From Pisolithus tinctorius (lineage: Eukaryota > Basidiomycota > Agaricomycetes > Boletales > Pisolithaceae): a stretch of DNA of 64,000 bases. The position numbers were made by a program, and so were the translations under genes. This document shows positions 4,901-38,811 of this stretch, in pieces; position 1 is the stretch's first letter; each line of letters opens with the position of its first letter. The stretch is taken from contig JANFAH010000006.1 of assembly GCA_024663395.1 (NCBI GenBank), positions 496,001 to 560,000 of the forward strand, given 5' to 3'. The notes under the pieces were generated by a model. That model saw only the letters and a program-made list of their open reading frames with translations. It was not told the origin of the DNA and did not search any database.

Positions 4901-4903
4901 TGT

Positions 4904-12281: not shown

Positions 12282-12302
12282 TGGATGACATGACATTCCA
12301 TC

Positions 12303-13585: not shown

Positions 13586-13657
13586 TGATAAAGAGTTCAT
13601 GTGAAGGAATAAGTCCCCACATTGTTTGGGTTCCATCCATAATCGACTTTGGTGACC

Positions 13658-14306
13658 ATGGTCGGCTTCCGACAATTGGCGTGCTCACTCCTTGGCTATT
13701 TGTTCTTTCGACTATCACCGCCAGGGTGCTACCACGACTTCAAGCGAGATGTCTCCAAGTCAGTCGTTATCGTTGGAGCGGGGAGCGCCAGGCTGGCTAT
13801 GTTGAAAACCCTGTTAGATCTGCCGGTCGAGACTCGCGCGGAGTGGGATATAGTTCTATACGAGCGACGCAGGGACGTAGGGGGAATATGGTGCGGTCTG
13901 TTTCACTACTCGTTATGACCACCACACCAAACTCAATCCACTGGATGCTGGACGGCAGGCTGCCAGATCCATTTCCTCCTTCTCCACCTAAACTACCCGA
14001 AACTCCATTGTATCCCCTGCTGCATGCTGATACCCCCGTCCCCATCATGACTTACCCCCACCTTCCGTTCCCACCTAGCACCTCTCTTTTCCCCTCACAC
14101 GAGTATATAGAACGCTATCACCAGGATTATGTGACCCACTATGACCTCTGGCCATATATCAAGTTTAACCATTCTGTGCTGTCATCATCATGGGTGGGAG
14201 CACCACATGCAGGGCATGGGGAAATCGTCATCGAGGATCATAATGGTGACTAGATACAAAAATCATTCGATCATCTCGTTGCTGCAGTTGGGCTAAGCTA
14301 TGTGCC
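13658..14306 (+). pseudogene. FMO copy D, 5' part, interrupted by the KDZ transposon
   Basis: Exon 1 13658-13890 (FAD motif reads GAGSARLAML, so a Gly of the family motif is Arg) and exon 2 from 13959. A TAG at 14251-14253 replaces the Arg codon seen in other copies (CGG, both bases of a CpG changed). At 14306 the gene is cut by the 23.4-kb KDZ element; it resumes at 37740. The second half also has a stop, so this copy is dead. Sequence similarity places it nearest copies E and F. Confidence 0.9.
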
Positions 14307-14396
14307 CAGACCCTTCAGTCACATGTAATCCAGAAAGTGGGTCATCTGACATGCACATTTGGTCCTGAAAGTGGGACTAACCGACATCGGCCTATA
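14307..14396 (+). repeat. Left terminal inverted repeat of the KDZ element
   Basis: Begins CAGACCCTTCAGTCAC and aligns, with scattered mismatches, to the reverse complement of 37650-37739. Most mismatches are C/T or G/A transitions. It runs straight into the 45-bp array. Confidence 0.8.
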
Positions 14397-14403
14397 GACC
14401 CTG

Positions 14404-15040
14404 ATGGTGGATAGGCCGACATGTTGGAGGGAGGTCGGCCAACCTCACTGGGCGATGGATCCACACCCTGGAAGTGGTGTTGGCCAACCTCACTGGGCGA
14501 TGGACCCACACCCTGGAAGTGGTGTCGGCCGACCTCACTGGGCGATGGATCCACACCCTGGAAGTGGTGTCGGCCGACCTCACTGGGCGATGGATCCACA
14601 CCCTGGAAGTGGTGTCGGCCGACCTCACTGGGTGATGGATCCACACCCTGGAAGTGGTGTCGGCCGACCTCACTGGGGGATGGACCCACACCCTGGAAGT
14701 GGTGTCGGCCGACCTCACTGGGGGATGGACCCACACCCTGGAAGTGGTGTTGGCTGACCTCACTGGGGGATGGACCCACACCCTGGAAGTGGTGCTGGCC
14801 AACCTCACTGGGGGATGGACCCACACCCTGGAAGTGGTGTTGGCCGACCTCACTGGGCGATGGACCCACACCCTGGAAGTGGTGTCGGCCGACCTCACTG
14901 GGCGATGGACCCTGGACCCACACCCTGGAAGTGGTGTCGGCCTACCTCACTGGGCGATGGACTCACACCCTGGAAGTGGTGTCAGCCGATTTCACTGGGG
15001 GATGGACACAGACCTCACCACCTGGAAGTAGGGTTGGCCA
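14404..15040 (+). repeat. Left subterminal array, about 13 copies of a 45-bp repeat
   Basis: Unit of 45 bp with core CCTGGAAGTGGTGTCGGCC and CTCACTGGGCGATGG. Cores recur every 45 bp from about 14467 to 14872, then with spacings of 54, 45 and 50. Because 45 is a multiple of 3, both strands stay open and make false 15-residue repeat ORFs. The unit is related, in inverted orientation, to the array at the right end. A degenerate copy is at 15140-15180. Confidence 0.85.
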
Positions 15041-15302
15041 AACCCTGAAAATTCCCTTGGCATAATCAATTGCTTGTCAATTTAGATGTTACCAGAAGTA
15101 TTGACTCTGATGACACTTCCAGATGGACATACCCCCTGAGACCAGTGTTGGCCAACCTCACTGGGGGGTGGCCTTACCCCCTGAATCCATGGCCATTCTT
15201 CACCTCCAGATGATGTCAGTGATCTCACAGGGTTTGAAACTTGCAATGAGCATGGGTAGCCATATATAGGGATCCTTTTGATTCACACCATCTACAGTTT
15301 AT
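15041..15302. other. Spacer between left array and first KDZ cargo gene
   Basis: Contains one decayed array unit (15140-15180) and otherwise unique CpG-poor sequence; probably the 3' flank of the minus-strand gene that ends at 15303. Confidence 0.4.
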
Positions 15303-17681: not shown

Positions 17682-17914
17682 GAGAGAATAAAATCAGGGG
17701 GATAATTAGCAGCACAGATGATGGAGGTTGGAAGCAAGGTGAAAATTTTTCAGCCTTTCCCAATTTAGGCAGGAGGTTGAAGTTTTCGGCCATCACTCTT
17801 TTAGGAAAGGTACCATTATGGTATGATTGTTTTGATGTATTTGCTATTCACTTTGATTCAGATACCAAGTGCAAAGCAAGGGTAATTGGAAAACTATACA
17901 CATATACCCATGTT

Positions 17915-20900: not shown

Positions 20901-21515
20901 GTTTTGAGGGCAAGGACGACCCCCATGGCCAATGTGCCAAAGGAACCCAAGTGCCATCAAAGAGGTAGCCTGGTAATGAGTAGCATTCCATCTTTGTACC
21001 TTGTGGAATGGAAGATTTTGATGCACTTTCACAGCACAAGGACCACACCAGGCATGCACACCAATGCAGGACATGCATCTGATACTTCCTTCTGCCTGAC
21101 AGCACTGCTCACATATCCCCCCCTTAGCCAGCTGCTCTCCCTCGAGAATGACTTTGAGATATTCTGCTCTCCAAGGCAGCCATTCTCTGATGAAATCATT
21201 TTGACTCTAGGGGATAATTTAGCCAATGCAGTATCAGGCAAAACTTCCCACCTTGGTAACCCTCCTAGTATTTGGGGTATCTTCCTCATCATTCCAGTCC
21301 AAGGTAGGCATGTCAAAGGAGTCTGGGACAACATTTTGGGAGCCTATTGTCCTGGGGGTCCTTGGAGTTGAAGGTTGACTCTGAGATGGGAGGTAGAGGT
21401 GTCTAGCATCCACCTCCTTGTAGGTGTCCTTTCCTCTCCGGGTTTTAGTGACTTCAAATTTATACAAACCTCCTGCAGAGCTTTTGCCAAGGACTGTGGT
21501 TCTACGACGACGCAT
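17915..21515 (-). CDS. KDZ transposase with N-terminal CxC2-type cysteine cluster
   Basis: Seen on the minus strand, multi-exon. Exon 1 starts at 21515 (MRRRRTTVLGKSSAGG). The next exon carries the cysteine cluster CEQCCQ, CMSCIG, CGPC and HQNLPFHKVQRW, typical of the CxC2 domain of KDZ transposases. Further on come GELALFCPACPQPGINLPP, then MDGNF (first catalytic Asp), NHRAINAAN, GCFVPHSVVDFQKGE, YDVGCQW (second Asp), GKFHLAAH and GHLDGEILETLWAPFN (candidate Glu), DDHMRDSNWKK, and a long helical C-terminus with ANDCLDQLRTNLGHK and VVEENRFGQGTSKMAWFWMM ending at 17915. The introns I followed (for example around 20010-19940 and 19850-19800) join in frame and I found no certain stop, so it may be intact. 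It should catalyse cut-and-paste movement of the element in the nucleus. Arginine is almost only AGA/AGG except three CGT codons at the start. Confidence 0.8.
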
Positions 21516-21659
21516 GATTGAGCACAGGAAGAGTCAAAAGCAAGGTTTTCAGCTGTATTGAAAATTTTTCATCCCCAAAACAACACCACACAAGTCCAGA
21601 ACAAGGTTATCAAATGTATTTAAAATATTTGTACCCAAAAATTGCCACTAAAATGTGTT

Positions 21660-23005
21660 TTAAGTGTATCTGACAGCCAACCCAAGAATGTCCTTTTGGG
21701 TAGTCCATGCTGGTCTTGTGACCTTGAGTCGGTCATGTACTTTGTCCTTCATATAATGCACCAATGCAATTCTTTCTCCCTTCTCCCACTTTGGCACAGA
21801 ATGTTGAAGGATTTTTCCTGATAGGAAAATCATGGTGCCTGGGGAATAAGCCAGTTCAGCCCCCAGATCTGGAATAAGGAATTTAGCATTGTGAGAACCC
21901 AGGCTCACTAATGAATCCAGAAGGGTTGGGGTGGATGTGACATCTCGGTGAGAGGGAGTTTCCTGATTGACAATAATATCAATGTTGGTATAGACTGATG
22001 GCCAATCCAGGGATATCTCATTCTCCACCCTGCCAGCCTTGGCCAACATTGCTTGATCACCAGCCCTGGCCATATCTGGCAATGAGACCTTTGCTATATT
22101 GCTCCAGAAGTGTTCCACATAAGAAATCTTGAGCAGCCATTCCCTATTGGCTTTCTGTTTGAGGGATGTGCTTTGATAGAGTGTATCAACCAACCTCTTT
22201 AAATTTGTCAGCCCCTACCATGGAAATCACAGCACCTGGACAAACCTCATGGGCCTGTTGGAATGTGGCAGGAGACATGGAAATCCTGCCATGTCCATAC
22301 ATGACTTGGTCAACAGGCTGATGCTTATGGCCATATCATTTGTTAAGCTTGCTTTTGTCTTTTGGCTTGTTCTTGGGCTCAGTCTGAAGATTGTCTTTTA
22401 TGGAAAGGAGAAGGGAATTGAGAAGTTCCTATGATATAAAAGCTGTAGTGAAGGGTTGTCAGAGAATGAAAACACTCACTATCCGTGCATCTGGGACAAT
22501 ACCAGGCAGATACCATACTATCACCCTGCCATGCACATCCAGAACTGTGGCAGGAGCATTGATATACCCAATTTTTGGGTTTTCAAAATGGATGGTCCTG
22601 TCCTTGGCATGCACCAATGGTTCAGAAAACCTGTCTGCATCCCAATGCAACACATCTATTAAGGGTCAGACTTGGATCACTTGGAATTGTTGTGGAAATC
22701 ACCTACAGGGATTGAGGATGGCATGTGTAATGACTGCGGATGCCAGCCTAACTTCCAAAGATGTAATAGCATCTGAAGTTAGACCAGATTCCCCTTGCAA
22801 TGTTGCCCTGACTTGGGTTAACTCAGCCAAGGATCGAAGTCTATTATCCAACTAAATACATAGCAAGTGTAGCATCACTGCTTATGGCTTACCTTGGCTT
22901 CCTGAGCTGGTGATTTGAGAAAATAGAGCTGGAAGAGATCATAGGGACTGTTCCAAAGGCAGCCTTCAGCATTCCAACCACCATTGTATGCAGGGAATCA
23001 TCCAT
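21660..23005 (-). CDS. TET/JBP-family 2-oxoglutarate/Fe(II) dioxygenase, possibly inactivated
   Basis: Seen on the minus strand: exons read MDDSLHTMVVGMLKAAFGT (start about 23005), LDNRLRSLAELTQVRATLQ, VLHWDADRFSEPL, IVWYLPGIVPDARI, HGRISMSPATFQQAHE, then the core with NQETPSHRDVTSTP (iron ligands His and Asp), ELAYSPGTMIFLSGKILQH (distal His in LQHSVP) and GERIALVHYMKD (Arg for 2-oxoglutarate), ending at 21660. These are the family's expected landmarks in the right order. Known: TET/JBP enzymes oxidise 5-methylcytosine or thymine in DNA, and fungal members are expanded beside KDZ transposons. Odd: an in-frame TGA at 22338-22336 (after KSKLNK) and a frame change near 22190 need unrecognised introns or mean inactivation. 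Ends 145 bp from the transposase start, same strand. Confidence 0.72.
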
Positions 23006-23009
23006 GATG

Positions 23010-24270
23010 ATGTGGGGGGTGTTGGAAAAGTCAAAGGAAAATTTTTCAACTGCAAGAAAAATAGTTAAAAATCACTCAGTACATAAGTTGGAAGTTATTC
23101 TCCACAAGGGACCTTGCTTGACTTGGGGGAAGATCCAGAATCCAGAAACCCAACTTAGTCTACTAGATACACCATGTTTCTTGAAACATCTAGTCATGTA
23201 AGCAGGGGCCTGGAATGGTGCAATCAAACTCAGCAGCAGTTGAACTCCAAGTCAATCCAGTCCAGCAATCTCTTGAGCATCATGGGAAACCATGGAACAC
23301 CAATACTAATCTAGCAATCTAGCAACATCCAACAGCTAGGAACACATCCAGTCAGCATTTGAAGGGAAGATGTTGGGTTGCTAGTAATGCCATTGGCAAG
23401 CTCTTGAGCATCAAAGGGAAACCTTGCTTAAGAAGATCAGCCATGGAACACCAGTGCTAATCTAGCACCATCCACCAGCCAGGCAGACTGACATGAAACA
23501 ATACACCAAGTCATTTGCTAAGGTTAGGGTTAGAAGGAGACTTGCATGAAAAAATACACCAAGTCTTATGCTAGGGTTAGGGTTAGCACATGCTTCATTC
23601 AAAAAAAGAAGCATAGATTCCCTCACAGCATTCAAATCCAATCAAAGCAGTGGCATTTACAAGGTCATACATAAATTCAACTACAGTTACAATTTCAACT
23701 ACAAAGGTATAATGGTTTCATAAGAAACCAAGGCTTGCCTGCATTCCAGAGGGGGCCCTCCTCCAGAAGTACAGTTGGGCCAATAAAAACTGTCCTCAAT
23801 TCAACCAAGTTCCCAAAAAAGCGCACAAAAGCTGATAACAAAGATCCTAAAAACACATTAGCATCAACACAACTTTGCAAAGTTCACATACCTGAGGTGC
23901 ACTATTTATTCACCAGGAGTCAAAGACAAACAGCTCTAGAAAGTTTATGTCAGTACAACATAGATTATACAGAAGTTGAATACTCACTACACCAAAGCCT
24001 GACCAACTAGCTACTACCAATATATACCAACACATACCACACAAAAAAATGTCATAGGCTGACCCACACAGGTGGGTACAGACCAAATAAAACATCATAA
24101 GCTGACCTACAATGTAGGTACAGACTAGCCCCCAGATCCCATGAGCTGGCCTACAATGTAGGCACAGACTATTCCCCCAGACCCAACATATTACCCAACA
24201 ACCAAAAATTGCACTGGCCAAGCACAATCTAAGGTCAAGGGTAGCCCCTCCCTACATCCTGTAGCTGCAG
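23010..24270. other. CpG-poor KDZ interior with short repeats, no gene recognised
   Basis: Holds two diverged copies of a block with CTCTTGAGCATCA and ATGGAACACCA (about 23260-23340 and 23400-23470), two copies of a block ending in telomere-like GGTTAGGGTTAG (23523-23594), and about three copies of a unit with a small inverted repeat CCTACAATGTAGG (24040-24190). Probably a long 5' leader or intron region of the leftward transcripts; I see no open frame of note. Confidence 0.45.
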
Positions 24271-24289
24271 ACTACAGTCAATAGTGAGG

Positions 24290-25100
24290 CGCCAAGGATG
24301 CTGCAAAGTAACAGTAATCAAGTAATGTGAAAATTCTTGGATCAGAGGTGCCACTTACCTTATGACAGCCAAGACAACGGGCTGAGATAAAAACGAAGAT
24401 GATGTAGCACAGAAAACGAGAAAGAGAGAGGGGGAAAGGGAGATGGAGATGGAGGGAGAGGGAGGACGGCGGAGGGGAAGTGTCACATCGCAGAGAAACG
24501 CAGTAAGGGAAAAAACATGCCACTGACTGGGGGGGATTTATATACTTGAGTCTTATGTACCGTTGTTTGGCCACAGTCCAACTAGCGAGGTCGCCGTCAA
24601 TGTCACGTTCTCGGCCTCAGTGTGTGTTCAGTTGCCGTGAGTGCCGGCAACTTCCTCTGAGTCAGTACCACATGTTGTACTATACATCGCAAATAGCAAT
24701 GTCACATGACTCCACTGTCACCGGATTCGGCTTCTATATACTAAATACTAAATGTTCACTTGACATTCTTGTAATTGCATTGTCGAGCCAAGCAAGCACT
24801 CCCTCGTGCCGTTGGCTGAGCGGTAGTGGTGGCTTACCCTTGGGATTTCACAGAAAATGTATTGTAGTAGCACTACCGGATCATTTAATACATGTAGTCA
24901 CTTATTGAAACCGGAAATCGGCCTAGCGGTGATGGACCACTCCGTATATAGTCCTACGTAATGTTCCAGAGATGCATCCGAAGTACAGGTAGACACGTGT
25001 GATAATCATGACAGCCATGATGTTGTTCATGTCACAATTAAGGTTGTGTCCAAGATTATCATAGGTCTCACTACATGACCTGTCCAAAATCGAGATCTGT
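24290..25100. promoter_or_regulatory. Divergent promoter region of the KDZ element (CpG-containing)
   Basis: Leftward: a TATA-like box (TATAAATCC on minus, about 24545-24535), then a pyrimidine-rich leader (minus of 24417-24480) and a perfect donor ATAAG|GTAAGT near 24360. Rightward: TATATA near 24735, then a CT-rich leader from about 25120 and a series of GTACGT/GTATGT donors. CpG is frequent here, while the flanking cargo genes almost lack it. Transcription from either side is inferred, not shown. Confidence 0.45.
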
Positions 25101-25229
25101 GCATCCGAGTATCCGGATTGACACGGTCTTTTGCTCCTCTCCTCTTGCCACACAGTGTCTCCCTCACCGACTGTCATTGTGTTATCCCACTCTCTGGCCC
25201 CGCTGCGTCTCAGCAAAATTTTTGGTACG

Positions 25230-25717
25230 TCATTGTCCTCTGGATCTCTCGCACCTCTCCCTCTCTAAACACAAAATAGGTACGTCATGCCGCGTCTCCC
25301 TTCAAAAAAAAAACAAAAAAGGTATGTTGTCGAACCTCTCATGGCTTCAACACTCACATCACACACCAGGACGCTGCCATCCTTCTCAGTCTATTGCGCG
25401 TTGTTCAGTGTCCCATACTACTCACAAAGCCCATTCATTCAAAAAGAAGGTAAGTAGCTCGCAGCGTCCCTCTACAACTCACAAAACACCCCCCCCCTCT
25501 CGCCTTGTCTCATCCACAAAACAGGTATGTCGTCCTACTTCCCGGCGTCCCTCTACCACTCACAAAACACCCCCTTGCCATGCTTATCCAAAAAAAAGGT
25601 ATGTCGTCCCAACTTCACGGCGTCCCTCTACAACTCACAGAACACCCCCTCGCCGTGCCTTATCAAAAAAACAAAAGGTAAGTCATCCCAGGTCGCAGTG
25701 TCCCTCTACCACTCACA
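25230..25717 (+). repeat. Left part of the 76-bp exon/intron-like repeat array
   Basis: About five to six diverged units with AG|GTATGT or AG|GTAAGT-like donors near 25279, 25320, 25449, 25525, 25601 and 25678, CTCTACNACTCACA-type 3' sites and A-rich tracts. Interrupted at 25722 by the chromovirus and continuing from 33326. Confidence 0.7.
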
Positions 25718-25722
25718 GAACA

Positions 25723-26250
25723 TGTCATAGTCGTGCCTCGACTCCGGCCGGACTCGGCCTCGCACTCACTCAGTCCGGCCTCGGCCTCGCTTGTCCCATG
25801 TCTCCAGTTGGTCTAGCACGGTAGACACTGCTTTGCAGTGTCTGTCATTTCGGTTAAGTCCTGTCCCCGGTCCTGTCCCCGGTCTACCTGTCCCGGTCTC
25901 CGTTACCTTAGTCATGCATTACTAATACTTGCCTTACCAATCTTCTTAGCAATCTTTGCGAGACCGGCATTACCGGTCTCCGTACTATAGTTACTTCTGG
26001 TATATAAACTCGTAGTTACTCGGCCTGTACTCCTCAGTCTGAAATCAACTAAGTATCTCCTGATAACCCCGCCTCGGCCTCGGACTCGGACTGAGACCCA
26101 CGCAAGGGAATAGCACTGTACCCTCAGTCGCTAAGTCCAACCAGTCCACTCATCTGTATCTTCGACTTCACCCCTGACCCCGACCCCTCGGCTTCGCGCC
26201 CGCTTCGGTCTCCGGTCTGGTCTCAACCCGGACAATCCTCGTACTTGACA
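25723..26250 (+). repeat. 5' LTR of the chromovirus
   Basis: 528 bp, TGTCATAGTC to ...ACTTGACA. Contains TATATAAACTC about 70% along as a likely TATA box for the element. Confidence 0.92.
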
Positions 26251-26288
26251 GTATTTCAGACTCGCCACTTGTGTGGGTCTAATACATC

Positions 26289-27671
26289 ATGGCAACCAAG
26301 ACTCACTTCCAACCTCCCCGTGGCCGTTCTGCCACCAATCCCGACTCCGCTTCAGCCAGTGGGGCCCGCCGCGAAACAGCACTAGCTGCTTTGGGCACCA
26401 CTAGGCGCTCCCCAGGTCCTGTCAGCCCTTTCAGGGGCTTCTCAGCCCGCACATCCAATACCCCCACTCCACGTCGTCCCACTGCTCCCATCCCCGAGGG
26501 TGACCCTGGCGATGATGGGCCGGGCGACGATGATGATAACCACCCAGAAGATAATGACCCCGATGATAATGGTCCCGGTGATGATAATCCAGATGAGGAT
26601 GATCCGGAGGACGAACCAGACTTCCCAGACCCGGACACCGAACCCGCGGTCGCGGTCTTCGACAGTCTCGCAAAGGCCATCAAGCTGTTGGCTCGCAACA
26701 CCCGTACTAGTCCTGAGTCCTCAAGCAGGACCAAGTTATGTGAGCCTGACACCTTTGATGGTACCGACCCCAAGAAGCTTCGCGCGTTCTTCATCCAGTG
26801 CGAGCTTAACTTCCAAGACCGACCTCGGGCTTTCAGGACTGATCGCGCCAAGGTCATCTTCGCCCAGTCGTACCTCAAAGGTATGGCTCTTGAATGGTTC
26901 GAGCCGGACTTACTCGGGCTCGACGACCCCAATGACCGGCCTCTCTGGATGGACTCCTGGAGGGAGTTCGTCTTAGAGTTGCAAACCACCTTCGGACCCC
27001 ATGACCCGGTTGCTGACACCGAAAGTCAACTCGACCACTTGCACATGAAAGATAGCCAGCGCATCAATAAATATGTAGTCGACTTCAATCGGCTTGCTTC
27101 GCAAGTCCGAGGCTACGGAGATGGTGCGCTGCGCCACCACTTCTACTCCGGACTCCCAGACCGGATTAAGGACGAAGTTTGTTGAGTTGGCAAACCCCGG
27201 ACACTTCACGAGCTCCGCCACCTCGCCCAGGAGATAGATGCGCGCTATTGGGAGCGCAAGGAGGAAGTCCAGCGGGCGAGTAAGCACCAAGGCTCGTCCA
27301 ACTCTAGTAACAACAAGTCTGGCGGTTCCAGCAACAACAACCAGCCTAAGACCGGTCAAGATAAATCCAAGACCGGCAACAACAATAACAACTCCGGTTC
27401 TTCCCCCAAGCCGGCTTCATCAAAGCCAGGCAATAGTAATAACAGCAATTCGTCCAAGCCCGAGCCTAGCAAACTCGGCAAAGATGGAAAGCTTACCCCC
27501 AAGGAACGCAAGCGTCGCATAGACGGAAACCTCTGCATGTTCTGCGGAGGGACCAGTCACTTCGCTGACAAATGCCCCAAGAAGACCGGAAAGGCCAAGG
27601 CTCGCGCTGCAGCCACCACCAAGGCCGCACCGGCCTCGGGCTCGGGTTCTACCCCCGAGACAAAAAAATAG
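26289..27671 (+). pseudogene. Chromovirus gag (capsid and zinc knuckle) with one internal stop
   Basis: ATG at 26289. An acidic N-terminal region is followed by a capsid-like core (CEPDTFDGTDPKKLRAFF, LEWFEPDLL, HMKDSQRINKYVVDFN) and, near the end, a CCHC zinc knuckle (CMFCGGTSHFADKC, about 27534-27575). A TGA at 27182-27184 interrupts the frame after KDEVC; the frame then continues without break to the TAG at 27669-27671. The TGA stands where related gag proteins have Arg, consistent with CGA to TGA. Gag would form the cytoplasmic particle. The terminal TAG sits directly after a slippery heptamer that would feed pol. Confidence 0.85.
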
Positions 27672-27706
27672 GTAGCGGCTCCCAGGACTCCGCACAATCT
27701 GGGAGC
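27662..27706 (+). promoter_or_regulatory. -1 programmed ribosomal frameshift signal between gag and pol
   Basis: Slippery heptamer A AAA AAA at 27662-27668, in the gag frame, immediately followed by the gag stop TAG (27669-27671). Nine nt after the heptamer a perfect 8-bp stem (27678-27685 GCTCCCAG with 27699-27706 CTGGGAGC, 13-nt loop) begins. Pol continues in the -1 frame. This is the textbook layout. Confidence 0.75.
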
Positions 27707-30700
27707 TGCGTTGACTCCAGTTGTGCAAACTTGGAGGCTCGTCTCAACGCGTCCGCTCTTTCCAGTCCAAATTCTTTAACCCCCTATGTCACATTAGAAA
27801 ACCCAGATTTACCTCAGCTTCGTACTTTAGTGGACTCCGGTTCCACTCACTGTTTCATAGATAATCATTTTGCTAATCAACATTCATTTACCCCTTACTC
27901 GGTCTCACCAATCCGACTCCGGCTCTTCGATGGAACGTCCACCTTCACTATAACCCAGGCAGTAGATGTCATTATCCGCTTCGCATCCGGCGATGTCACC
28001 CCAGTAACCCTGTTTTTAGCCCCATTGGATTCTGAGTGTAAGATAGTCCTCGGACATGACTGGCTCACCCACTACAATCCGTTGATTGACTGGGTACTGA
28101 GCAGTCTAACATTCCGGACTCCTGCACAAGGAATGCCAACCCCGTCGACACCCCCTGTAAGCCCGGTCTCCACTGGTCTTCCTGACTCCGGTCCTAGCGA
28201 CCAACCCGGCCTCGCGCCATCTGTACCGGTCTCCGACTCCCCGGCTCGCACCCCTCTGAAAGCCCCTCTTGTTTCCCTGATCAACACAGCCGCCTTTGTG
28301 TGCGCCTGCAAACTAGAAGGGTCCGTCCAATTCCAACTTCAGCTCCACCCCTCGGACTCAGCTCAAGCCCGATCGGCCTCGGCTTCCCCTTCTCCGGCCT
28401 TACCCAATGTACCGGAGGAGTACCACAACTTCGCTGATGTATTCAGCAAGGCCAAGGCCTCGGCACTCCCACCACACCGGGAGTATGACCTGAAGATAGA
28501 GCTCGAAGAAGGAACAACCCCGCCATTAGGCACCATCTACTCGCTTTCCCCGGTTGAGCTCCAAGCTCTCCGGACTTTCATCGACGAAAACCTTACTACC
28601 GGATTCATTCGGCCTACTTCCTCCCCTTATGCTGCACCGGTCCTCTTTGTCAAAAAGAAGGACGGCTCCCTCCGACTCTGTGTAGACTTCCGCGGCCTCA
28701 ACAAAATCACTAAGAAGGATCGCTACCCACTCCCGCTCATCTCCAACCTGTTAGATTCACCAAGCCAAGCCAAGATCTACACCAAGATTGATCTTCGGCA
28801 TGCCTACCATCTCGTCCGGATTGCTCCGGGCGATGAATGGAAGACCACATTCCGGACTCGGTATGGATCTTACGAGTGGTTAGTAATGCCCTTCGGCCTC
28901 ACCAATGCCCCGGCCGCCTTCCAACGCTTCATGAATACCATTTTCACGGATATGTTGGATGTCTGCGTAGTCGTCTACTTAGATGACATCTTAATCTACT
29001 CTGGAGATAAGGAGTCTCACAAGCAGCATGTCCGAGAAGTCCTCCGCCGGCTTCGGCTTCACGGCCTGTATGCGAAGCCGGAGAAATGTGAGTTCCACTC
29101 GGACTCGGTCGAATACCTCGGATTTCACCTTTCCCCTGCCGGCCTCATGATGTCGAAGGAGAAAGTCCAGACCATCTGCGATTGGCCCAAGCCTCGCAAG
29201 GTCAAAGACATTCAATCTTTCCTTGGCTTCGCGAACTTCTACCGCCGTTTTATCTTTAATTACTCGGACATTGTCGTACCACTGACTCGGCTTACCCGCA
29301 AGGGGGCTCCTTGGAACTTCTCTGAGGAGTGCCACCGATCATTTAATAACCTCAAGGCTGCCTTCACTACCGTGCCGGTCTTAACTCATTTCATCCCCGG
29401 GGTTCCTATCACCGTCGAGACCGATGCTTCGGACTATGCCATCGCCGGCATCCTATCTATCACCTGCGGCGACGGCCAGATTCATCCAGTCGCCTTCTAC
29501 TCCCGAACCCTAACCGCCCCGGAGTTGAATTATGATACTCACGACAAGGAATTGCTTGCTATATTCGAAGCATTCCGGACCTGGCGCCACTACCTTGAGG
29601 GCTCGGCCTCACCGGTCGACGTTGTTACCGACCACAAGAACCTCGAGTACTTCTCCACCTCTAAAGTACTCACCCGCCGCCAAGCTCGCTGGTCAGAATT
29701 CCTGTCTCAATTCAATATGATCATCAGATTCAGACCCGGTAAGCTAGGGGCTAAGCCCGACGCCCTAACTAGACGATGGGACGTCTACCCCAAAGAGGGG
29801 GATAGCGGCTACGCCTGAGTGAACCCGCAAAACCTGAGACCGGTATTCACCCAAGAGCAACTAGCGGTTTCCCTTCGCGCAACGTACCTAGAGTACCTGG
29901 TCTTACGAGCAGTTGCCTTAATGGACGTCGAGAAACTTCATAATGACATCCTGACCGCACTGCCGGACGACCCGGTCTCACAAATCTGCCTGTCCGACAT
30001 GTCTGATCCCCAGTGGTCAGTAGATGACACCGGCTTCCTTCGTCTTGATGGAAGGATCTACATCCCGGACTCAAATGATCTCCGTCTTAGGGTCTTGCGG
30101 CTTAAGCATGACCACCCTCTATCCGGCCACTTCGGCCAAAACTGAACCCTAGAACTCATTCGGCGTGAATACACCTGGCCCGGCCTCAGGACCTTCGTCA
30201 AAGACTATGTCCGGTCTTGCACGGCCTGCGCTCGGGCTAAGGTTCCCCGCCATCGGCCTTACGGCCTCCTCAAGCAACTCCCGGTGCCAGAGAAGCCGTG
30301 GAACTCCATCTCTATGGATTTCATCGAGCAGCTTCCGGCCTCAACCGGCTTCACGGCCATCCTCGTTGTAGTTGACCGGCTCTCCAAGCAGGCTGTATTC
30401 ATCCCAACCCACGACACTATTACAGCCCCAGAACTCGCCAAGTTATTCCTACTCCATGTCTTTTCGAAGCACGGAGTGCCGGCCCATGTAACCTCAGACC
30501 GAGGCTTGGAGTTCGTCTCTCATTTCTTCCGGTCGCTCGGTAACGCTTTAGACATGCGCTTACACTTCACCTCGGGCTACCACCCCGAAGGCGATGGCCA
30601 GACCGAAAGGACCAACCAGACTCTAGAACAATATCTCCGAGTGTACTGCAACTACCAGCAGGACAACTGGGCCGACCTATTACCTCTGGCCGAGTTCGCA

Positions 30701-31387
30701 TACAATAACGCCCCTAGCGCTACTACCGGTGTTTCCCCTTTCTTCGCTAATAAGGGATACCATCCTAATATCTCGGTGTACCCGGAGCGCGATCTTACCT
30801 CCGCTCGGGCTCGTGACTATGCAGTCGACTTAGACTCACTGCATCAGTACCTACGGGAAGAAATGACCTTGGCACAGCAGCGCTATCAAGGACCGGCCGA
30901 TGCTAAACGCATGCCGGCTCCGGACTTCAAAGTCGGCGACCAAGTATATGTCAAAGCCAAGTACTTCCGGTCTACCCGGCCTTCCAAGAAGCTCTCGGAG
31001 AAAAACCTTGGGCCATATCCGGTCATAGCTCAGGCCGGTACCCACTCGTTCACACTGCGCCTGCCGGACTCAATGCGCGCGGTACATCCGGTCTTCCACG
31101 TTTCCCAACTCGAGCCAGCCATCCCTAATACCATCCCGAACCGGACTCAACCACCACCCCCACCAGTTGAAGTCGACAGTGATCTAGAGTTCGAGGTAGC
31201 GGAAATCCTCGACTCTAAGGTCGACCGGCGTCGCCGGTGTTGGCTTCAGTACTTAGTCCGGTGGACCGGCTACGAAGGGACAGATGAAGAAACTACTTGG
31301 GTACTCGCCACTGAACTAGAAAACGCCTCTGAACTCGTACAAGAGTTCCATTCCCGCTATCCCAACAAACCCGGCCCATACCAATAA
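27669..31387 (+). pseudogene. Chromovirus pol: protease, RT, RNase H, integrase, chromodomain; two internal stops
   Basis: Read in the -1 frame relative to gag. Order: aspartic protease (LVDSGSTHCFIDNHF near 27835), reverse transcriptase (LCVDFRGLNKIT, then YLDDILIYS with the catalytic DD near 28990), RNase H (TDASDYAIAGIL, YDTHDKELLAI), integrase with an HHCC zinc module (H..H near 30110, CTAC near 30220) and DDE core (SMDFIEQ, TSDRGLEF, GQTERTNQTLEQ), and a C-terminal chromodomain (FEVAEILDSKV...YLVRWTGYEGTDEETTW). TGA codons at 29816-29818 and 30143-30145 split it; apart from these the frame runs unbroken to 31387. The chromodomain would direct integration to marked heterochromatin. Confidence 0.9.
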
Positions 31388-31574
31388 GGACCGGTCTCAC
31401 CGGCCTCAGCTGCTGTTTTCTGTTTTCTATCGGTATCTAGTTTTCTCTGATCTCTTACTTACTTTGTTTTCTTTTCTTGTTTGTTCTCAATAACTATACG
31501 AGACCGGAACCGGACACCGGACACCGGACACATGACATTCGCAGGGGGTTAACAAAAGTGCTACGCTATGTACC

Positions 31575-32660
31575 CTACTCGGCCATATCCTCATCTTCCC
31601 CTTCGGCCTCCTCCTCCTCGTCTTCGCCGTGGTTCTTCAACCAGTCAGCTTCCTCGCGCAACTCATCAGAGTCGAGCTCAGATGAGCCCGAGTCCGAGGG
31701 AGAGACCGCCATACCGAAGCCATACGACTCATCGAGCATGGCCTCGAGCGCATCGGCAATCCGGCCCAAGTTTTCGACCACGGCCTCTTGGAGTTCGAAG
31801 AGCCCCACCAGGTTATTGGCAATAAGCCCCGCGACATCAATGAGCCGCTCGAGCTTGTCCTCTAAGCCTGAGGGTCCCCCTGCGTGGGCCTTCCTCACCC
31901 CGCTCCCACCGGCTTCGGGCTCGTCGATTTCCAGTACCTCGGTCAGTTTCGACTTTGCCCACTTCTTCTGGCTCGGCCCGGGCTCAGGAGTTTCGTCGTC
32001 GGCCCTCCTCTTTTTTCCTTTGTCAACCTTGGGACCGGCCTTAGGACTGGCCTCGGCGTCCTTCCCGTCCCCCGGCCATCGGCACTTGCCTTTCGACAGG
32101 TTGCAGCGCATGCAGGCAACCTGTTTCTTGTTGCCATCTACGAGGAACTCGCAGACGACCTGTGCCCGGGTGCAACGGGTACAGCTAGAGGATGTTAGAT
32201 GAAGAGAGCGCAGGTAGTAGGAAAATACTCACCCAGGGTCCATTACCACCCTCTTAACTTCGCCCGCGGCCTCACCACTAGCGCCCCCAGCGCCGGCCTC
32301 ATCACTCTTGCCGGCCTCGGCCTTGCGCTTGCGCTCGGCCTCCCGCCTCTCCTCCTCTTTGCGTACTCTCCTCTCCTCGGCCTCCCGCGCTGCCTTCTCG
32401 GCCTCGGCCTTCTCCCTCTCAGCCCTCTCGGTCTCAATCCGCTCCCTCTCCACTCTCTTGGCCTCCAGTCGCGCCTGCTCTTCCCGCCGGGCTTGTTCAG
32501 CCGCCTTTCGTCGCTTCCTCTCCTTCGCCTTGGCCCTCATCGTCTCTTCCTCGTCGTCGGTGTCGTACTTGATGGTGTCTTCCGACACCTGGGACCAGTC
32601 GATCACGACTCGGCCTTTGTTGTTGTTGTCGGCGGCGTCGATCGGTCTGGAGTCGGACAT
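31575..32660 (-). CDS. Antisense accessory gene of the chromovirus: coiled coil plus Zn2Cys6 cluster
   Basis: Seen: join of 32660-32233 and 32184-31575 on the minus strand; the 48-nt GT-AG intron keeps the frame and gives 345 residues. Start MSDSRPIDAADNN. Residues about 50-130 are a highly charged Glu/Arg/Lys/Ala coiled coil. Directly after the splice point comes C144-x2-C147-x6-C154-x12-C167-x2-C170-x6-C177, which fits the fungal binuclear zinc cluster pattern exactly. Then a basic patch (KKRRADDETPEPG), a leucine-rich helix and a very acidic tail. Known: Zn2Cys6 clusters bind DNA in fungal transcription factors. Inference: an element-encoded DNA-binding regulator transcribed opposite to gag-pol. 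No stop or frameshift, unlike gag and pol. It is a convergent overlap with nothing else; its promoter must lie between 32661 and the 3' LTR or in the LTR. Confidence 0.72.
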
Positions 32661-32784
32661 GATGAAAAGGATGAGAATGAAAGACGCGAAAGGCTTAGCG
32701 AGCCACAAGTATCAATTTTTCGAACTCAGCCAACTTTCGGACTCAGCCTACCACTCTCGCAGGGGTCTCATGGGTTCGACCCCT

Positions 32785-32794
32785 AAGAGGGGGA
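32785..32794 (+). other. Polypurine tract of the chromovirus
   Basis: AAGAGGGGGA, three bases before the 3' LTR; the usual primer site for plus-strand synthesis. Confidence 0.65.
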
Positions 32795-32797
32795 TAC

Positions 32798-33325
32798 TGT
32801 CATAGTCGTGCCTCGACTCCGGCCGGACTCGGCCTCGCACTCACTCAGTCCGGCCTCGGCCTCGCTTGTCCTGTGTCTCCAGTTGGTCTAGCACGGTAGA
32901 CACTGCTTTGCAGTGTCTGTCATTTCGGTTAAGTCCTGTCCCCGGTCCTGTCCCCGGTCTACCTGTCCCGGTCTCCGTTACCTTAGTCATGCATTACTAA
33001 TACTTGCCTTACCAATCTTCTTAGCAATCTTTGCGAGACCGGCATTACCGGTCTCCGTACTATAGTTACTTCTGGTATATAAACTCGTAGTTACTCGGCC
33101 TGTACTCCTCAGTCTGAAATCAACTAAGTATCTCCTGATAACCCCGCCTCGGCCTCGGACTCGGACTGAGACCCACGCAAGGGAATAGCACTGTACCCTC
33201 AGTCGCTAAGTCCAACCAGTCCACTCATCTGTATCTTCGACTTCACCCCTGACCCCGACCCCTCGGCTTCGCGCCCGCTTCGGTCTCCGGTCCGGTCTCA
33301 ACCCGGACAATCCTCATACTTGACA
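32798..33325 (+). repeat. 3' LTR of the chromovirus
   Basis: 528 bp, nearly identical to the 5' LTR; differences seen are transitions such as CCCATG/CCTGTG and CTCGTAC/CTCATAC. Confidence 0.92.
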
Positions 33326-34130
33326 GAACACCCCCTCGCCATGCTCATCCAAAAAAAAAGGTATGTCGTCCCAGCTTTGCGGTGTCCCTCTACAACTCAC
33401 AGAACACCCCCTCGCCGTGCTCATCCAAAAAAAAAGGTATGTCGTCCCAGCTTTGCGGCGTCCCTCTACAACTCACAAAACACCCACAGAACACCCCCTT
33501 GCCATGCTCATCCAAAAAAAAAGGTGTGTTGTCCCAGCTTCGCAGCATCCCTCTACAACTCACAGAACACTCCCTCGCTGTGCTCATCCAAAAAAAAAGG
33601 TATGTCATCCCAGCTTTGCGGTGTCCCTCTACAACTCACAGAACACCCCCTCGCCGTGCTCATCCAAAAAAAAAGTACATCGTCCCAGCTCGCACAGCGT
33701 CCCTCTACAACTCACAAAACACCCACAGAACACCCCCTTGCCGTGCTCATCCAAAAAAAAAGGTGTGTTGTCCCAGCTTCGCGGTGTCCCTCTACAACTC
33801 ACAGAACACTCCCTCGCTGTGCTCATCCAAAAAAAAAGGTATGTCGTCCCAGCTTCGCGGCGTCCCTCTACAACTCACAGAACACCCCCTCGCCGTGCCT
33901 TATCAAAAAAAAAAAGGTATGTCGTCCCAGGTCGTGGCATCCCTCTACCACTCACAGAACACCCCCTTGCTGTGTCTCATCCTACAAAAGGTATGTTGTC
34001 CCAGTTCCTGGTGTCCCTGTACCACTCACAAAACACACTAGTAGGCTATCAATTCATATCTCCCTCCTGCCACACTGCATCTCCCTTGCTGTGTCTCATC
34101 CAATAAGGTATGTTGTTGGACTTCTACTTC
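33326..34130 (+). repeat. Right part of the 76-bp exon/intron-like repeat array
   Basis: About ten units. Typical unit: 34-nt exon-like part (AACACCCCCTCGCC ... CATCC, A-run, G) and 42-nt intron-like part (GTATGTCGTCCCAGC ... CTACAACTCACAG). Donors recur at 33361, 33437, 33524, 33600 and so on; some spacings are 87 because of an 11-bp internal duplication (ACAAAACACCC). The last, most diverged units run to the leader intron of the H3-tail gene. Frame-shifting ORFs of over 200 codons here are artefacts of the repeat. Confidence 0.8.
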
Positions 34131-34335
34131 ATGGTGTCCAGATGATACTTACATATCACCCTCTTTGGTCTGCTTATCCAGTGCCCAGTGTTGTGTAGTT
34201 GCATACATTGGCTTGTCTTTTCCATAAATATGTAGATATCTATCCCTGCTGCATGATATATGTACTAAACTAAATGCATTTATTGTTATCTTACTGCTTG
34301 TCCCCTACACCTTCTGTGTCTTGTAAAGATAATAA

Positions 34336-34401
34336 GGTATGCTACTGTTCCCTTCTGTGTCATGTTGCTGCCACTCACTAATGTTGGCATAATACACTCA
34401 G
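34336..34401 (+). promoter_or_regulatory. Leader intron directly before the H3-tail gene's ATG
   Basis: AATAAG|GTATGC at the 5' side and ACACTCAG|ATGGTG at the 3' side. It fits the series of donor/acceptor pairs in the upstream 76-bp array, so the start codon would be the first three bases of an exon. Confidence 0.55.
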
Positions 34402-35989
34402 ATGGTGAAGACCAAGCAGACAGCTAAGAAGACCACTGGGGGTAGAGCTCCCAGGGTATCTCTTGCTGGTCTGAAAGCTAGGGAAAAACATGCTACCAAG
34501 TCAAGCAAGGCCCATGCTAGGAAGGCCCCTGTTGCCAAGAAGAGAAGGATGAGGAACTTGGCAAGTCTCTTTTTATATTCCATCCATCTTTCTAACATTC
34601 TATGCAGTTCTGTGTGATGTGCAGGGATGGAGGGACATTGTGGCCTTGTGATCAGGCAGGATGCAGAAGGGTAGTGTGTAACAAGTGTGTTGTAGTACCT
34701 GAGGATTGCCTTGCAGAGGTCACCCAGCTTCCTGTGACCTTCAGGTGTGTTAACCTCCCTTTTATGAATTAATTCCATTGACTCAAACTCTGGATGAACT
34801 TCAGGTGTGTTGCCTGTCATTGGAAAATGACAAGATTTGAAAGTCCTCAGCCCTATTTTGTAAGTGCATATTGCCACCCCAATCACTTCTAACTCCAAGT
34901 ACAGGGCTTCTACTTGTCAGGCAAGCCAGTCCTGAAACACCCTCTTGTGGTCATTGGGGGGTTTGAGCATGCCACCACCTCTGAAGTGGCTGGTAACTCT
35001 ACTGCCATTATCCACCTCCACCTTGAGTCTCTAGAGCTTGGCCATGCCCCTGTGCATATCCTTCACACCATGTTGCAGGGATATTTCAGACAAGACACCT
35101 ACCACTTCTCACAACTGTCCTTCAACTTTGCCACTGAGGAGTCCAGAGCTGCCTATGACACTGCAGCATCAAAGCTAGCTTCAAGTCTGACTACCTTTGC
35201 TAAGGTAGTCATTTTCCTTACTACCCATACTGATGAAGACAGGGGGGATCTGTTCTCTGGAATGGAGAATAAGGTTCCAATAGCCACAGAGGTCTTTGAG
35301 GTAAGTCACCATTGTTTGACTGTCACTCCCATCTGACCAGTTGCAGTTTCTGCAAGGCCTTCTGTTACCCCTCTCCAACATTGTCAAGGGTGGAGACCTC
35401 ATCTTCTTTGTATGTGGTTCTACTGTAAGGAAGGAGCAGAGCTTCCAAGGACTGAAGGCAGCTGTGCAACAGTAGGTTTTCTTTCAATGTTGGTGGTTAT
35501 GGCTGACACCATATCAGTTTCAAGCCAAGGTCCATGTTGCTTTTTGATGCTGAGAGACTTCAACTAGTCACCACCATTCCCTTCCTCATGAGTGTCCTTG
35601 ACTCCACCCTTGTTCAAGGCTTCCATGTCCAAAGTGCAGTCAGGTATGCCCTGAATGACTGTGGTATGTTGGGTAGGCACTCCAACATCATCCTGATGTT
35701 GTGGCAGGAGAAGGTAGTGGTGGAGAAATTTGTCTGGACTGACAAGTTCATCAGGCCTTGGGGACAACAATTGCCTGCCCAGTGCCCTCAGTGTTATAGC
35801 ATTCAGAAGTGGGAAGCTGGTTGTTCAGGGCAGACTTATTCCTATGAGTGCAAGAATCCTGGCTGTGGGAAGGACACACAAGGCACATCTCAGCCTCCCC
35901 AAACCTATACTATCTGCATGTCCAAAGGGGCTACCAAACTGACACAGGGAAAGGGGCAAACATCATCCTGGCTGTTGGAATCTTTGTAA
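34402..35989 (+). CDS. Histone-H3-tail mimic fused to PHD-like finger, alpha/beta domain and zinc ribbon
   Basis: Seen: exons 34402-34560, 34608-34744, 34805-34859, 34905-35300, 35347-35471 and 35518-35989 join in frame to 447 residues with no stop. Intron 1 is GC-AG (TTG|GCAAGT); the others are GT-AG. Residues 1-18 read MVKTKQTAKKTTGGRAPR, matching the H3 N-terminus (ARTKQTARKSTGGKAPR) at 12 of 17 positions with four conservative changes; the K4, K9 and R17 counterparts are kept. A Lys/Arg/Ala-rich stretch to residue 53 is also tail-like. Then a PHD-type cluster: C55, C58, C67, C72, C77, C80 and C100, C103, with Cys77 at the usual His position. Then a strand-helix domain (LVVIGGFEH; IFLTTHTDED; LIFFVCGS) and a C-terminal zinc ribbon (CPQC ... 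CKNPGCGK). The ATG starts directly after a leader-intron acceptor. Not one CpG occurs in the gene. Function unknown; chromatin binding or mimicry is inferred. Confidence 0.75.
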
Positions 35990-36390
35990 AATACCCTACC
36001 TTGATACATATGATATGCATGTACTACAATCAAAAATAGCTGCTTTGTGTTTTCAAATTTCATATGACATTGAATGTTCAGAAAAAAAAGTAATTTCCTG
36101 CAGGACAATTCCTCCTTAAGTACTGATACACAACTGAGTAAATTTGCCCAATGTTAATTCCAATACAATGGCCAGATTGGTAGAGTTAACTTCAATACCA
36201 CAGGATAAGGATAGGATATAGGATTTTTCCACAACCATGTGGGTTCAGCCAGCTAACTACCAAGGAAGTAGTGTACTGAGTAATAAGATTGGCCAGCCCC
36301 ACTAACCCACTAGCAAGATATTGGTCTTTCTTGCAAAGTGTCTGCCCAACCACAACTCCAGGTCATGGTTCATTCCCCCCAGCCACATCA
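35990..36390. other. 3' flank of the H3-tail gene
   Basis: AT-rich, CpG-free, no gene seen; grades into the right subterminal array. Confidence 0.4.
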
Positions 36391-37630
36391 GCTGACCCCA
36401 CTGCCAGGACATCATCCCTTCCCCCAGCCATGTCAGCTGGCCCCACTTCCAGGTCACTAATCTATCCCATAGCTGGTTTGGCCAACCCCACTTCCAGGTC
36501 ACTAACCTATCCCATAGCTGTGTCAGCTGACACCACTTCCAGGTCACTAATTCATCCCATAGCTGTGTTGGCCAACCCCACTTCCAGGTCACTAATCTAT
36601 CCCATAGCTGTGTTGGCTGACCCCACTTCCAGGTCACTAATTCATCCCATAGCTGTGTTGGCCAACCCCACTTCCAGGTCACTAATCTATCCCATAGCTG
36701 TGTTGGCTGACCCCACTTCTAGGTCACTAATTCATCTCATAGCTGGGTCAGCCGACCCCACTTCTAGGACACTAATCTATCCCATAGCTGTGTCAGCTGA
36801 CCCCACTTCCAGGACACTAACCTATCCCATAGCTGCATCGGCCGACCCCACTTCTAGGACACGAATCTATCTCATAGCTGTGTCGGCCGACCCCACTTCT
36901 AGGACACTAATCTATCTCATAGCTGCATCGGCCAACCCCACTTCTAGGACACTAATTCATCCCATAGCTGTGTTGGCTGACCCCACTTCCAGGTCACTAA
37001 TTCATCCCATAGCTGTGTTGGCCAACCCCACTTCCAGGTCACTAATCTATCCCATAGCTGTGTTGGCTGACCCCACTTCTAGGTCACTAATTCATCTCAT
37101 AGCTGGGTCAGCCGACCCCACTTCTAGGACACTAATCTATCCCATAGCTGTGTCAGCTGACCCCACTTCCAGGACACTAACCTATCCCATAGCTGCATCG
37201 GCCGACCCCACTTCTAGGACACGAATCTATCTCATAGCTGTGTCGGCCGACCCCACTTCTAGGACACTAATCTATCTCATAGCTGCATCGGCCAACCCCA
37301 CTTCTAGGACACTAATTCATCCCATAGCTGTGTTGGCTGACCCCACTTCCAGGACACTAACCTATCCCATAGCTGCATCGGCCGACCCCACTTCTAGGAC
37401 ACTAATCTATCTCATAGCTGTGTCGGCCAACCCCACTTCTAGGACACTAATTCATCCCATAGCTGTGTCGGCCGACCCCACTTCCAGGACACTAATTCAT
37501 CCCATAGCTGCATCAGCCAACCTCACTTCCAGGTCATCAATCCATCCTATAGTCATGTCAGCCGACCCCACTTCCAGGGAAGTTGATCCATCATCCTGTG
37601 ACATAGGCCAACCCCACCTTCACAGTCCAG
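36390..37630 (+). repeat. Right subterminal array, about 26 copies of a 45-bp repeat
   Basis: Unit CCCCACTTCCAGGTCACTAA ... CATAGCTGTGTTGGCCAAC, period 45. Its reverse complement shares CCTGGAAGTGG-GTTGGCCAAC with the left array, so the two are inverted subterminal repeats. A block of eight units (360 bp, 36616-36975) is repeated at once (36976-37335). A 456-codon open frame across it is an artefact of the 3n period. Confidence 0.85.
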
Positions 37631-37649
37631 CCTACCCAACCCTAGGGAC

Positions 37650-37739
37650 CACCGGCTGATGTTGGTTAGTCCCAGTTTCAGGACGAAATGTACATGTCGG
37701 ATGACCCACTTTTAGGACTACAAGTGACTGAATCATGTG
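37650..37739 (-). repeat. Right terminal inverted repeat of the KDZ element
   Basis: Reverse complement begins CACATGATTCAGTCAC and then follows the left repeat. ATGTGCC (37740-37746) immediately outside repeats 14300-14306. Confidence 0.8.
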
Positions 37740-38811
37740 ATGTGCCACATATGGTGATATTTCCGGGACAAGAAACATGGCTAGAGAACACCAAAGGTAT
37801 ACCGCAATGAGAAATCATGCACTCGATGTGGTATCGCAATCCTAGTTGGTATGTCAACCAGACCGTCATAGTGGTTGGCGGAGGAGCAAGTGGAGTCAAC
37901 GTCTCTTCTCAGGTGTCGCCATATGCCTGTAAAGTGAGTACCATCCATTTGTAATGGTTCTCAGTCGATGCCTCAATCCAGGTTGGTTTTCCTTGGTAAA
38001 GGTTTACCTTTCCATTCGCAGTTCACTATGGGGAGGGATGCCAATGGGACCTGTGGAAATGAAACCTGAAATTTCACATTTTATGTCAGATGATGTTATC
38101 TTCACAGATGGGTTGACAGTGCAAGACGTTAATACAATCATACTGGCTACAGGCTATGATTTGCGTGTGCCTTTCTTAGAAGAAGGTGGGGAAGTGATCG
38201 TGAAGCCAGGGTCTAACGAAACAGACAAACAAAGGCTTACCACCAACTTGTGTTATCTGTTCCCACTCCATAAACATATGTTTTCCCTGTTGGCATCCTA
38301 TCCAACGAACGCACTGGCGTTCATCGGCCTCCTGGGATCGCCCTTCTGTCGTCCCTCAGATATTGCACAGAGTATCTACGTGACCTCGATCATTATCAAT
38401 GGCAGCCTACTTGCGCCCCGAGCAGAGTTACTGAGCGAGCTTGCAGACAGCAAAGAAGACCTTCGGAGGCGAGGGTATGATCTGTATTATATCGGACATA
38501 AGATGGTCGACAATTCTGCATTCGATTATCAAGAAGGTCTCATCAAGACGTTGCGATCAAAGGAGGGATTGCCGAAGCAGAATATCACTTTCATTGAGCC
38601 CTGGAGAAGAGAAAGCCTTGATTATCTGAGTGGTAGCCTGAAGCGAGGGTGGAAAAGGTTGGAGGCACTTGGACTAGCAGAGGAATGGCTAGCAGGGGTT
38701 GAGAGTGAAGACAAGTGGGCTGATCTTATGAGACGAGTGAACGCATGGCAGAGAGATTGGGAGACGGTGCACCATTTGGTATTTCCAGATGACATACTCG
38801 TATATTCATGA
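37740..38811 (+). pseudogene. FMO copy D, 3' part
   Basis: Continuation of exon 2 from the KDZ insertion site: CCACATATGGTGATATTTCC, then a TGA at 37808-37810 where copy F has CGA. The NADPH motif VVGGGASG survives. Exon 3 is 38002-38811 and open over its full length (MGPVEMKPEISHF, ATGYDL, ending DDILVYS). With the TAG in the first half and the transposon, the gene is dead, but exon 3 has not yet broken. Closest relatives are copies E and F. Confidence 0.9.

Follow-up and report, generated by a model that had tools for sequence, protein, structure and literature searches.

We describe a gene, carried by a KDZ transposon of the mushroom Pisolithus tinctorius, whose product begins with a near-copy of the N-terminal tail of histone H3. 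At the level of sequence, the mimic itself, its conservation and, in P. tinctorius, its linkage with KDZ transposase and TET genes are firmly established. A near-exact H3 tail has been kept in two mushroom orders as the protein core drifted to ~25% identity, and this conservation suggests that the tail serves as a histone decoy directed at the host gene-silencing machinery. A single mobile element would then combine such a decoy and a caspase-like domain with a TET enzyme, and the question of how fungal transposons defeat H3K9 and 5-methylcytosine silencing becomes testable.

The KDZ element and its H3-like gene

The window (the whole stretch of DNA analysed, 64,000 nucleotides in length) contains an entire KDZ element of 23.4 kb at 14307..37739, with the ends 5'-CAGACCCTTCAGTCAC ... 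GTGACTGAATCATGTG-3'. It is bordered on the left (14300..14306) and on the right (37740..37746) by the target-site duplication ATGTGCC; the CA..TG termini with this 7-bp duplication were read at both ends in the window copy only. The two ends form imperfect inverted repeats of 151 nt with 75% identity. A KDZ transposase domain is present but the inverted arms are unlike the description of two Laccaria Kyakuja families, so the element is named Kyakuja-type, its assignment to KDZ being certain. On the minus strand lie the KDZ transposase exon (PF18758, E 4e-28; 19337..19948), a KDZ-transposase-associated CxC2 cysteine-cluster exon (PF18803, E 5e-24; 20462..20956) and a TET/JBP dioxygenase exon (PF12851, 36.7 bits against a cut-off of 34.9; 21660..22214). 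A Gypsy-type LTR retrotransposon with gag, RT and RNase H domains is nested on the plus strand (25723..33097) and stands outside the proposed function; its terminal repeats, 25723-26022 and 32798-33097, are 99% identical.

The right end of the element is present in 16 of the 18 copies displayed, with an internal place displayed for L026 and L028, and the flanks differ except in L018-L020, which share one. In the window, the insertion interrupts a gene named by eye as flavin-monooxygenase-like; when the flanks are joined with one copy of the duplication, frame 2 is restored across the site, a frame with its own stops on both sides. Many copies and fragments of flavin-monooxygenase-like genes, together with major-facilitator-like pieces, are recognizable by eye at 713-14253 and 37933-59847, the element lying inside one of them. 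Two near-identical Harbinger-like transposase pieces, also named by eye, lie in opposite orientation ~2 kb apart at 44750-45389 (minus strand) and 47399-48050 (plus strand).

Tandem repeats common to other copies are found upstream of the gene (approximately 33323..34060), and right subterminal tandem repeats in ~45-bp units extend over approximately 36400..37580. In copies L009-L028, the arrays that flank the gene have a left spacing of 76/87 bp and right units of ~45 bp, their extent depending on the copy. A block common to the copies had suggested that the gene is a stand-alone element of 4.4 kb. This candidate was rejected: some copies continue into the sequence beyond the nested Gypsy of the window, and terminal repeats and a duplication were found.

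The gene occupies 34402-35989 on the plus strand. Its six exons, which the first-pass annotation had joined in frame to 447 residues, do give 447 residues and a stop. Exon 1 (34402..34560), assigned by translation, encodes the H3-tail mimic (codons 1-18) and a basic linker; in-frame joins add most of a PHD/ADD-like zinc cluster in exon 2 (34608..34744) and the end of that cluster (CVACHW) in exon 3 (34805..34859). From the joins and a structure model, exon 4 (34905..35300) is predicted to hold the first half of a CHAT/caspase-like domain, with His225 (TTHTDED), and exon 5 (35347..35471) its Cys272 (FVCGS). Exon 6 (35518..35989) carries the end of the domain, C-terminal cysteines named by eye as zinc-ribbon-like (CPQC...CKNPGC) and the stop. 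Exon 1 is followed by a GC donor (GCAAGT); the donors of the next four introns are GT. In order, the product would comprise the H3 mimic (1-17), a linker of variable length, the PHD/ADD-like zinc cluster, the CHAT/caspase-like domain and a C-terminal zinc ribbon.

The product starts MVKTKQTAKKTTGGRAPR, and translation from the exon at 34402-34560 reads MVKTKQTAKKTTGGRAPRVSL... Compared with canonical H3, whose N-terminus we take to be ARTKQTARKSTGGKAPR, five of 17 positions are unlike, the number given in the first-pass annotation. The likeness to host H3, which begins MARTKQTARKTTGGKAPR at the two loci read (L048 and L050), is closer, with 13 of 17 positions identical and the changes A1V, R2K, R8K and K14R. 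Position 10 in these two canonical host H3 genes is Thr, not Ser. With the basic composition of the exon itself, 2.1 matches to H3 1-17 are expected by chance at a single place, and the probability of at least 13 is 5e-10 on the same composition-matched, single-place basis, before any correction for proteome size. Searched against the sequences of solved structures, the 53-aa exon gave 133 matches at E<=1 (top E 7.8e-5), and the best 60 of these 133 all belong to H3, as histones, peptides or variants; one carries the name Cse4.

Of the marks of a histone H3 gene, the H3-like N-terminus is found here; the histone fold (PF00125) had zero matches among 20 family proteins in a Pfam search, and the protein is therefore not an H3 variant. 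Recent capture of a host H3 exon was considered and rejected. The window tail differs from L050 by 0.66 differences per synonymous site, and the two host H3 genes read are interrupted by introns inside the tail-coding part (L048) or shortly behind it (L050), where the transposon exon has none. An old capture of a host H3 exon may have taken place.

Copies, relatives and conservation of the tail

The tail exon is found at 49 places in the P. tinctorius genome at E<=0.001 (50 rows). A TET exon lies upstream in divergent orientation within 40 kb at 40 of these places, 33 of them within 9 kb, and a KDZ exon lies upstream and divergent within 45 kb at 38, the distance being 6.4-8.6 kb at 30; nine places have no TET row within 40 kb and 11 have no KDZ row within 45 kb. 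For this pairing, 43 of 150 TET rows and 39 of 150 KDZ rows were used (close subfamilies), second fragments being omitted (two TET, five KDZ). One KDZ row and three TET rows stayed unpaired, two of the latter being second fragments at places already paired, and the real leftovers of both kinds are on contig C13. Since TET and KDZ exons pair with most tail places, the gene is a regular part of the element. The first-pass annotation had asked whether the H3-like start is conserved and always next to KDZ or TET genes; in the P. tinctorius genome it is usually but not always beside them, and the start is indeed kept across species, as described below.

A degenerate DNA pattern for M-x-x-TKQTA-x-K has 56 sites genome-wide and none in a reversed control; 51 of them lie within 1.5 kb upstream of a family domain exon, four at host H3 loci and one elsewhere. 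A MPRTKQTARK start was seen at C2:4630070-4630099 (minus strand), outside the four H3 loci and with no matched domain exon downstream. Diverged copies keep the start as the sequence behind it changes: L046 and L047 begin MARTKQTAKKVTGGHAPR, L064 begins MPRTKQTAKKSNGGVAPR, L062 begins MARTKQTAKKSACGTATR and L063, with R at position 4 (MARTRQNAKK), begins MARTRQNAKKTTSGTAPR. Compared with five copies from three other subfamilies, the window tail shows synonymous differences of 0.73-0.83, which is near saturation, and nonsynonymous differences of 0.16-0.23. Copies L022 and L023 (on C17) and L018-L020 have common flanks or form pairs, so that part of the copy number may reflect segmental duplication or the presence of both dikaryon nuclei.

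Relatives were collected in three database searches, the second of which gave 120 of 129 proteins and the third of which scored the 7989 candidates sharing most words. At least 172 homologous proteins, five of them without a species name, were found in Pisolithus species, many Suillus, Rhizopogon vesiculosus (P0163) and Mycena sanguinolenta (P0171, Agaricales). The tail segment, counted as present when at least 8 of 17 residues are identical to host H3, occurs in 139 of the 172 proteins listed and directly follows Met in 127 of the 139. The other 33 have no tail of at least 8/17, and several of them, judged from the protein sequences alone, begin partway through the tail, or within or beyond the zinc exon. 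Homologues lacking the segment had been named beforehand as evidence against the mimic; retention in 139 of 172 largely answers this, with a true loss in L060, where the zinc exon is present without the tail, and decay in L061 (MVRTRSSTKN, R at position 4). The Mycena protein P0171 starts MARTKQTARKSNGGSAPK, and among the Pisolithus members P0052 starts MARTKQTARKATGGKAPR and P0028 MARTKQTARKTTGDRAPR. Many tails are MARTKQTARK exactly, and the closest among the relatives are up to 16/17 identical to host H3.

Identities were compared among 17 sequences (6 Pisolithus, 10 Suillus and 1 Mycena) picked from members with a tail. For Pisolithus-Suillus, Pisolithus-Mycena and Suillus-Mycena, respectively, they are 62%, 64% and 72% in the tail, 8%, 15% and 5% in the linker, 41%, 37% and 39% in the zinc cluster, and 26%, 25% and 24% in the domain core. 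Sequence comparison thus establishes the tail as the best conserved part of the protein among the relatives compared. Conservation as an artefact of young copies is ruled out by its extension between Pisolithus, Suillus and Mycena. Of the 87 distinct tails, 85 have K9 and 85 have G12; K4 is kept in 82, T6 in 77, A15 in 76, T3 in 74 and T11 in 65. Positions 10 and 14 are free, R8 is replaced by K in 46, and 18 tails have N or M at position 5. Because the rule of at least 8/17 itself selects for likeness, the contrast between positions (4, 9 and 12 as against 10 and 14) is the safer evidence. In 81 of the 87 the first residue is A, V, T or P, before which the initiator Met is normally removed, so that the mimicry would extend to the free N-terminus of H3. 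The variation among tails can be read as a natural mutagenesis experiment on the H3 residues required by a partner.

The zinc cluster and the predicted peptidase fold

A PHD-type cysteine cluster had been claimed within 40 residues of the tail. The cluster and its position hold, the first Cys being residue 55, 37 past R18, but it is not a canonical PHD: Cys replaces the His of C4HC3, and PHD Pfam models had no match in the family proteins at E<=1 or, in one search, at E<=0.1. It is best described as PHD/ADD-like. The DNMT3 ADD model PF21255 reached E 0.03-0.045 in two of nine proteins, at 14.3-14.8 bits against a cut-off of 27, and the cluster is weakly similar to the H3-reading PHDs of SP140 (E 0.02) and AIRE (E 0.15). 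Pfam matches to casein kinase II beta, below cut-off (best E 0.00046 in P0088; 0.0011 in P0076), were rejected; they are confined to zinc-cluster residues and are read as shared cysteine spacing.

The largest part of the protein, overlooked in the first-pass annotation, has a predicted clan-CD peptidase fold of the CHAT/caspase kind, and the presence of this domain changes the mechanistic reading. An earlier model from 15 sequences (pLDDT 59), which had no fold match at E<=0.001, was replaced by one from a 38-sequence alignment. The fold matches of the latter, covering mostly residues 36-350, are SAVED-CHAT proteins, C11 peptidases and caspases (PDB 8tl0, 6n9j, 6ns7), with the exceptions of a type VI secretion effector chain in row 2 and an anti-sigma factor in row 12; the Foldseek E-values are modest, and unrelated folds (taste receptors) start at 3e-3. 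In clan CD peptidases, His and Cys follow successive strands of the sheet, and the candidate catalytic His and Cys are so placed in the predicted model. They are H220 and C267 of P0027, each in 36 of 38 rows, and H225 and C272 of the protein encoded in the window. The His-Gly motif is absent from the domain, which has TTHTD instead. Pfam peptidase families had no match in 12 domain pieces at E<=1, and the domain profile had none among PDB sequences at E<=10. The domain is possibly a dead peptidase. The pLDDT of the tail is 28 for residues 1-10 and 60-64 for residues 11-30.

Proposed function and known systems

The sequences show a copy of the H3 tail maintained by selection at or near the start of a regular transposon protein. 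We consider it about an even chance (roughly 0.5) that this mimic engages H3-tail-binding silencing proteins, the protein's own zinc cluster or both, beside a putative peptidase. The tail would act as bait for readers and modifiers of H3 in the K4 and K9 region; candidate partners are an H3K9 methyltransferase of the SUV39/DIM-5 type, HP1, LSD1-type factors and possibly the protein's own zinc cluster. Bound partners would be titrated away from the element and might also be cut by the tethered peptidase. Together with the TET/JBP enzyme of the element, the tail would strike silencing at two levels, H3K9 methylation and 5-methylcytosine. Among the residues on which the fungal H3K9 methyltransferase DIM-5 chiefly depends are T11 and G12, both mostly kept here. 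Against this reading, some H3K9 enzymes require R8, which is exchanged for K in 46 of the 87 tails. The constraint on the tail spans T3/K4 to R17, and the usual PHD footprint is narrower than this. With R at position 4 in L061 and L063, and N or M at position 5 in 18 of 87 tails, reading of K4 cannot be universal; the two copies with R offer a natural experiment on the reader that counts. More tentatively, the product may be a histone-baited protease, whose free H3 tail would lure H3K4/K9 readers and writers to be inactivated by cleavage as TET removes 5-methylcytosine. If this were true, it would to our knowledge be the first transposon histone mimic and the first enzyme bearing the ligand of its victims as bait.

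Several other readings have to be weighed against engagement of silencing proteins. The tail may instead dock in the PHD/ADD-like cluster of its own protein and so keep the peptidase, or chromatin binding, switched off until nucleosomal H3 with unmodified K4 displaces it, much as H3 relieves the ADD domain of DNMT3A. We hold such autoinhibition in cis to be possible, at odds well short of even. In members from Pisolithus, Suillus, Rhizopogon and Mycena alike, the protein has a reader-like zinc cluster after its tail, with weak similarity to SP140/AIRE PHDs and, below cut-off, to DNMT3 ADD; the variable linker fits a tethered ligand, and residue 1 is small. Conservation, however, extends to K9, G12 and A15-R17, past the PHD footprint, and some copies have K4R (L061, L063). 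AIRE reads K4 through acidic residues ahead of the first Cys, and such residues are absent in the window copy; the low pLDDT of the tail (28 for 1-10; 60-64 for 11-30) also counts against docking. It is unlikely that the tail is instead the peptidase's own substrate or pseudosubstrate, a propeptide whose real counterpart would be nucleosomal H3 tails clipped near the element. A predicted clan-CD fold, conserved His and Cys, and an H3 tail do occur in one chain, and the basic residues of the tail could serve as P1 sites; yet a pure substrate has no obvious need for conserved K4 and K9 with an exchangeable R8, and the peptidase may be dead.

The most improbable of the accounts considered is that the tail is a basic stretch for nuclear localization or DNA binding, similar to H3 by ancestry or chance only. 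Both the tail and the Pisolithus linker are basic, but the uncharged T3, T6, A7, G12, G13, A15 and P16 are kept in 67-85 of 87 tails and the linker is unconserved, the Suillus linkers compared appear less basic by eye, and the composition-matched chance of 5e-10 tells against coincidence. The main threat to an N-terminal position of the tail in the window subfamily comes from upstream, where a possible leader exon (34274..34336, plus strand), recognized from copies of the recent subfamily, has an in-frame ATG (MHLLLSYCLSPTPSVSCKDNK). Translation from there would make the H3-like segment internal and without function as a mimic in this subfamily. A leader intron directly before the tail ATG is plausible from the sequence, and if it is spliced the upstream ATG stands 21 codons before the tail with the leader open in 30 of the 32 copies evaluated out of 34; several public gene models, P0006 and P0010 among them, also join upstream exons. 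In unspliced form, all 32 have a stop just two or three codons ahead of the tail ATG. Unspliced sequences of other subfamilies (L045-L047, L062 and L063) likewise have an in-frame stop and no ATG ahead of the tail start, and the upstream sequence of L045-L047 and L062 looks unlike the window leader by eye. L043/L044 count against the mimic, having ARTKQTAKK with no preceding ATG and an in-frame stop three codons further up. The in-frame stops just upstream, here and in other subfamilies, speak for a start at the tail, as do the Met before the tail in 127 of 139 proteins and the small residue 1, and we judge the upstream start to be improbable.

Viruses and a few host regulators are known to use histone mimicry, examples being the influenza NS1 tail, the self-methylation site of G9a and the SNAG domain of SNAIL, which is bound by LSD1. 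Like these, the present protein has a short H3-like sequence in a non-histone context, able in principle to engage H3 readers or writers. It differs in that up to 16/17 residues are imitated, at or near the extreme N-terminus and in two mushroom orders, and in that a transposon gene joins the mimic to a zinc cluster and a peptidase-like domain. The zinc cluster resembles the DNMT3A ADD domain, which is autoinhibitory, and AIRE PHD1 in part of its cysteine spacing and DGG-x-L motif, and H3-tail reading is a possible shared function; unlike them, it falls below every family cut-off, has its ligand in the same polypeptide and comes with no methyltransferase. To SAVED-CHAT, C11 peptidases and caspases (8tl0, 6n9j, 6ns7) the likeness lies in the predicted fold and in the topological place of His and Cys; here there is no sequence-profile match and no HG motif, and H3-tail and zinc modules replace SAVED, TPR or CARD.

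The open-access papers searched (supplements excluded) contained no report of a transposon-encoded H3-tail mimic, whether alone or combined with a zinc cluster and a caspase-like domain; the first-pass annotation, too, knew of no such family in a KDZ element. Histone mimicry as a strategy and TET-bearing KDZ elements are already known. In the main text of PMC12730594, the terms PHD, zinc finger, protease, Pisolithus and Suillus are all absent; its accessible part does not mention an H3-like protein, and that of PMC10066745 has no such protein. As far as its accessible part goes, PMC12730594 describes TET-bearing Kyakuja elements of Agaricomycotina that share with the present one a KDZ transposase, a TET/JBP gene, CA..TG ends and 7-bp duplications; two Laccaria Kyakuja families described there have no terminal inverted repeats, in contrast to the imperfect inverted ends (151 nt, 75%) seen here. 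Transposon anti-silencing proteins cited in the same part, the plant VANDAL regulator and the SET domains in HarbingerS, are likewise products of transposon genes aimed at epigenetic silencing. The protein described here would act, if at all, by imitating a histone and not by modifying chromatin directly.
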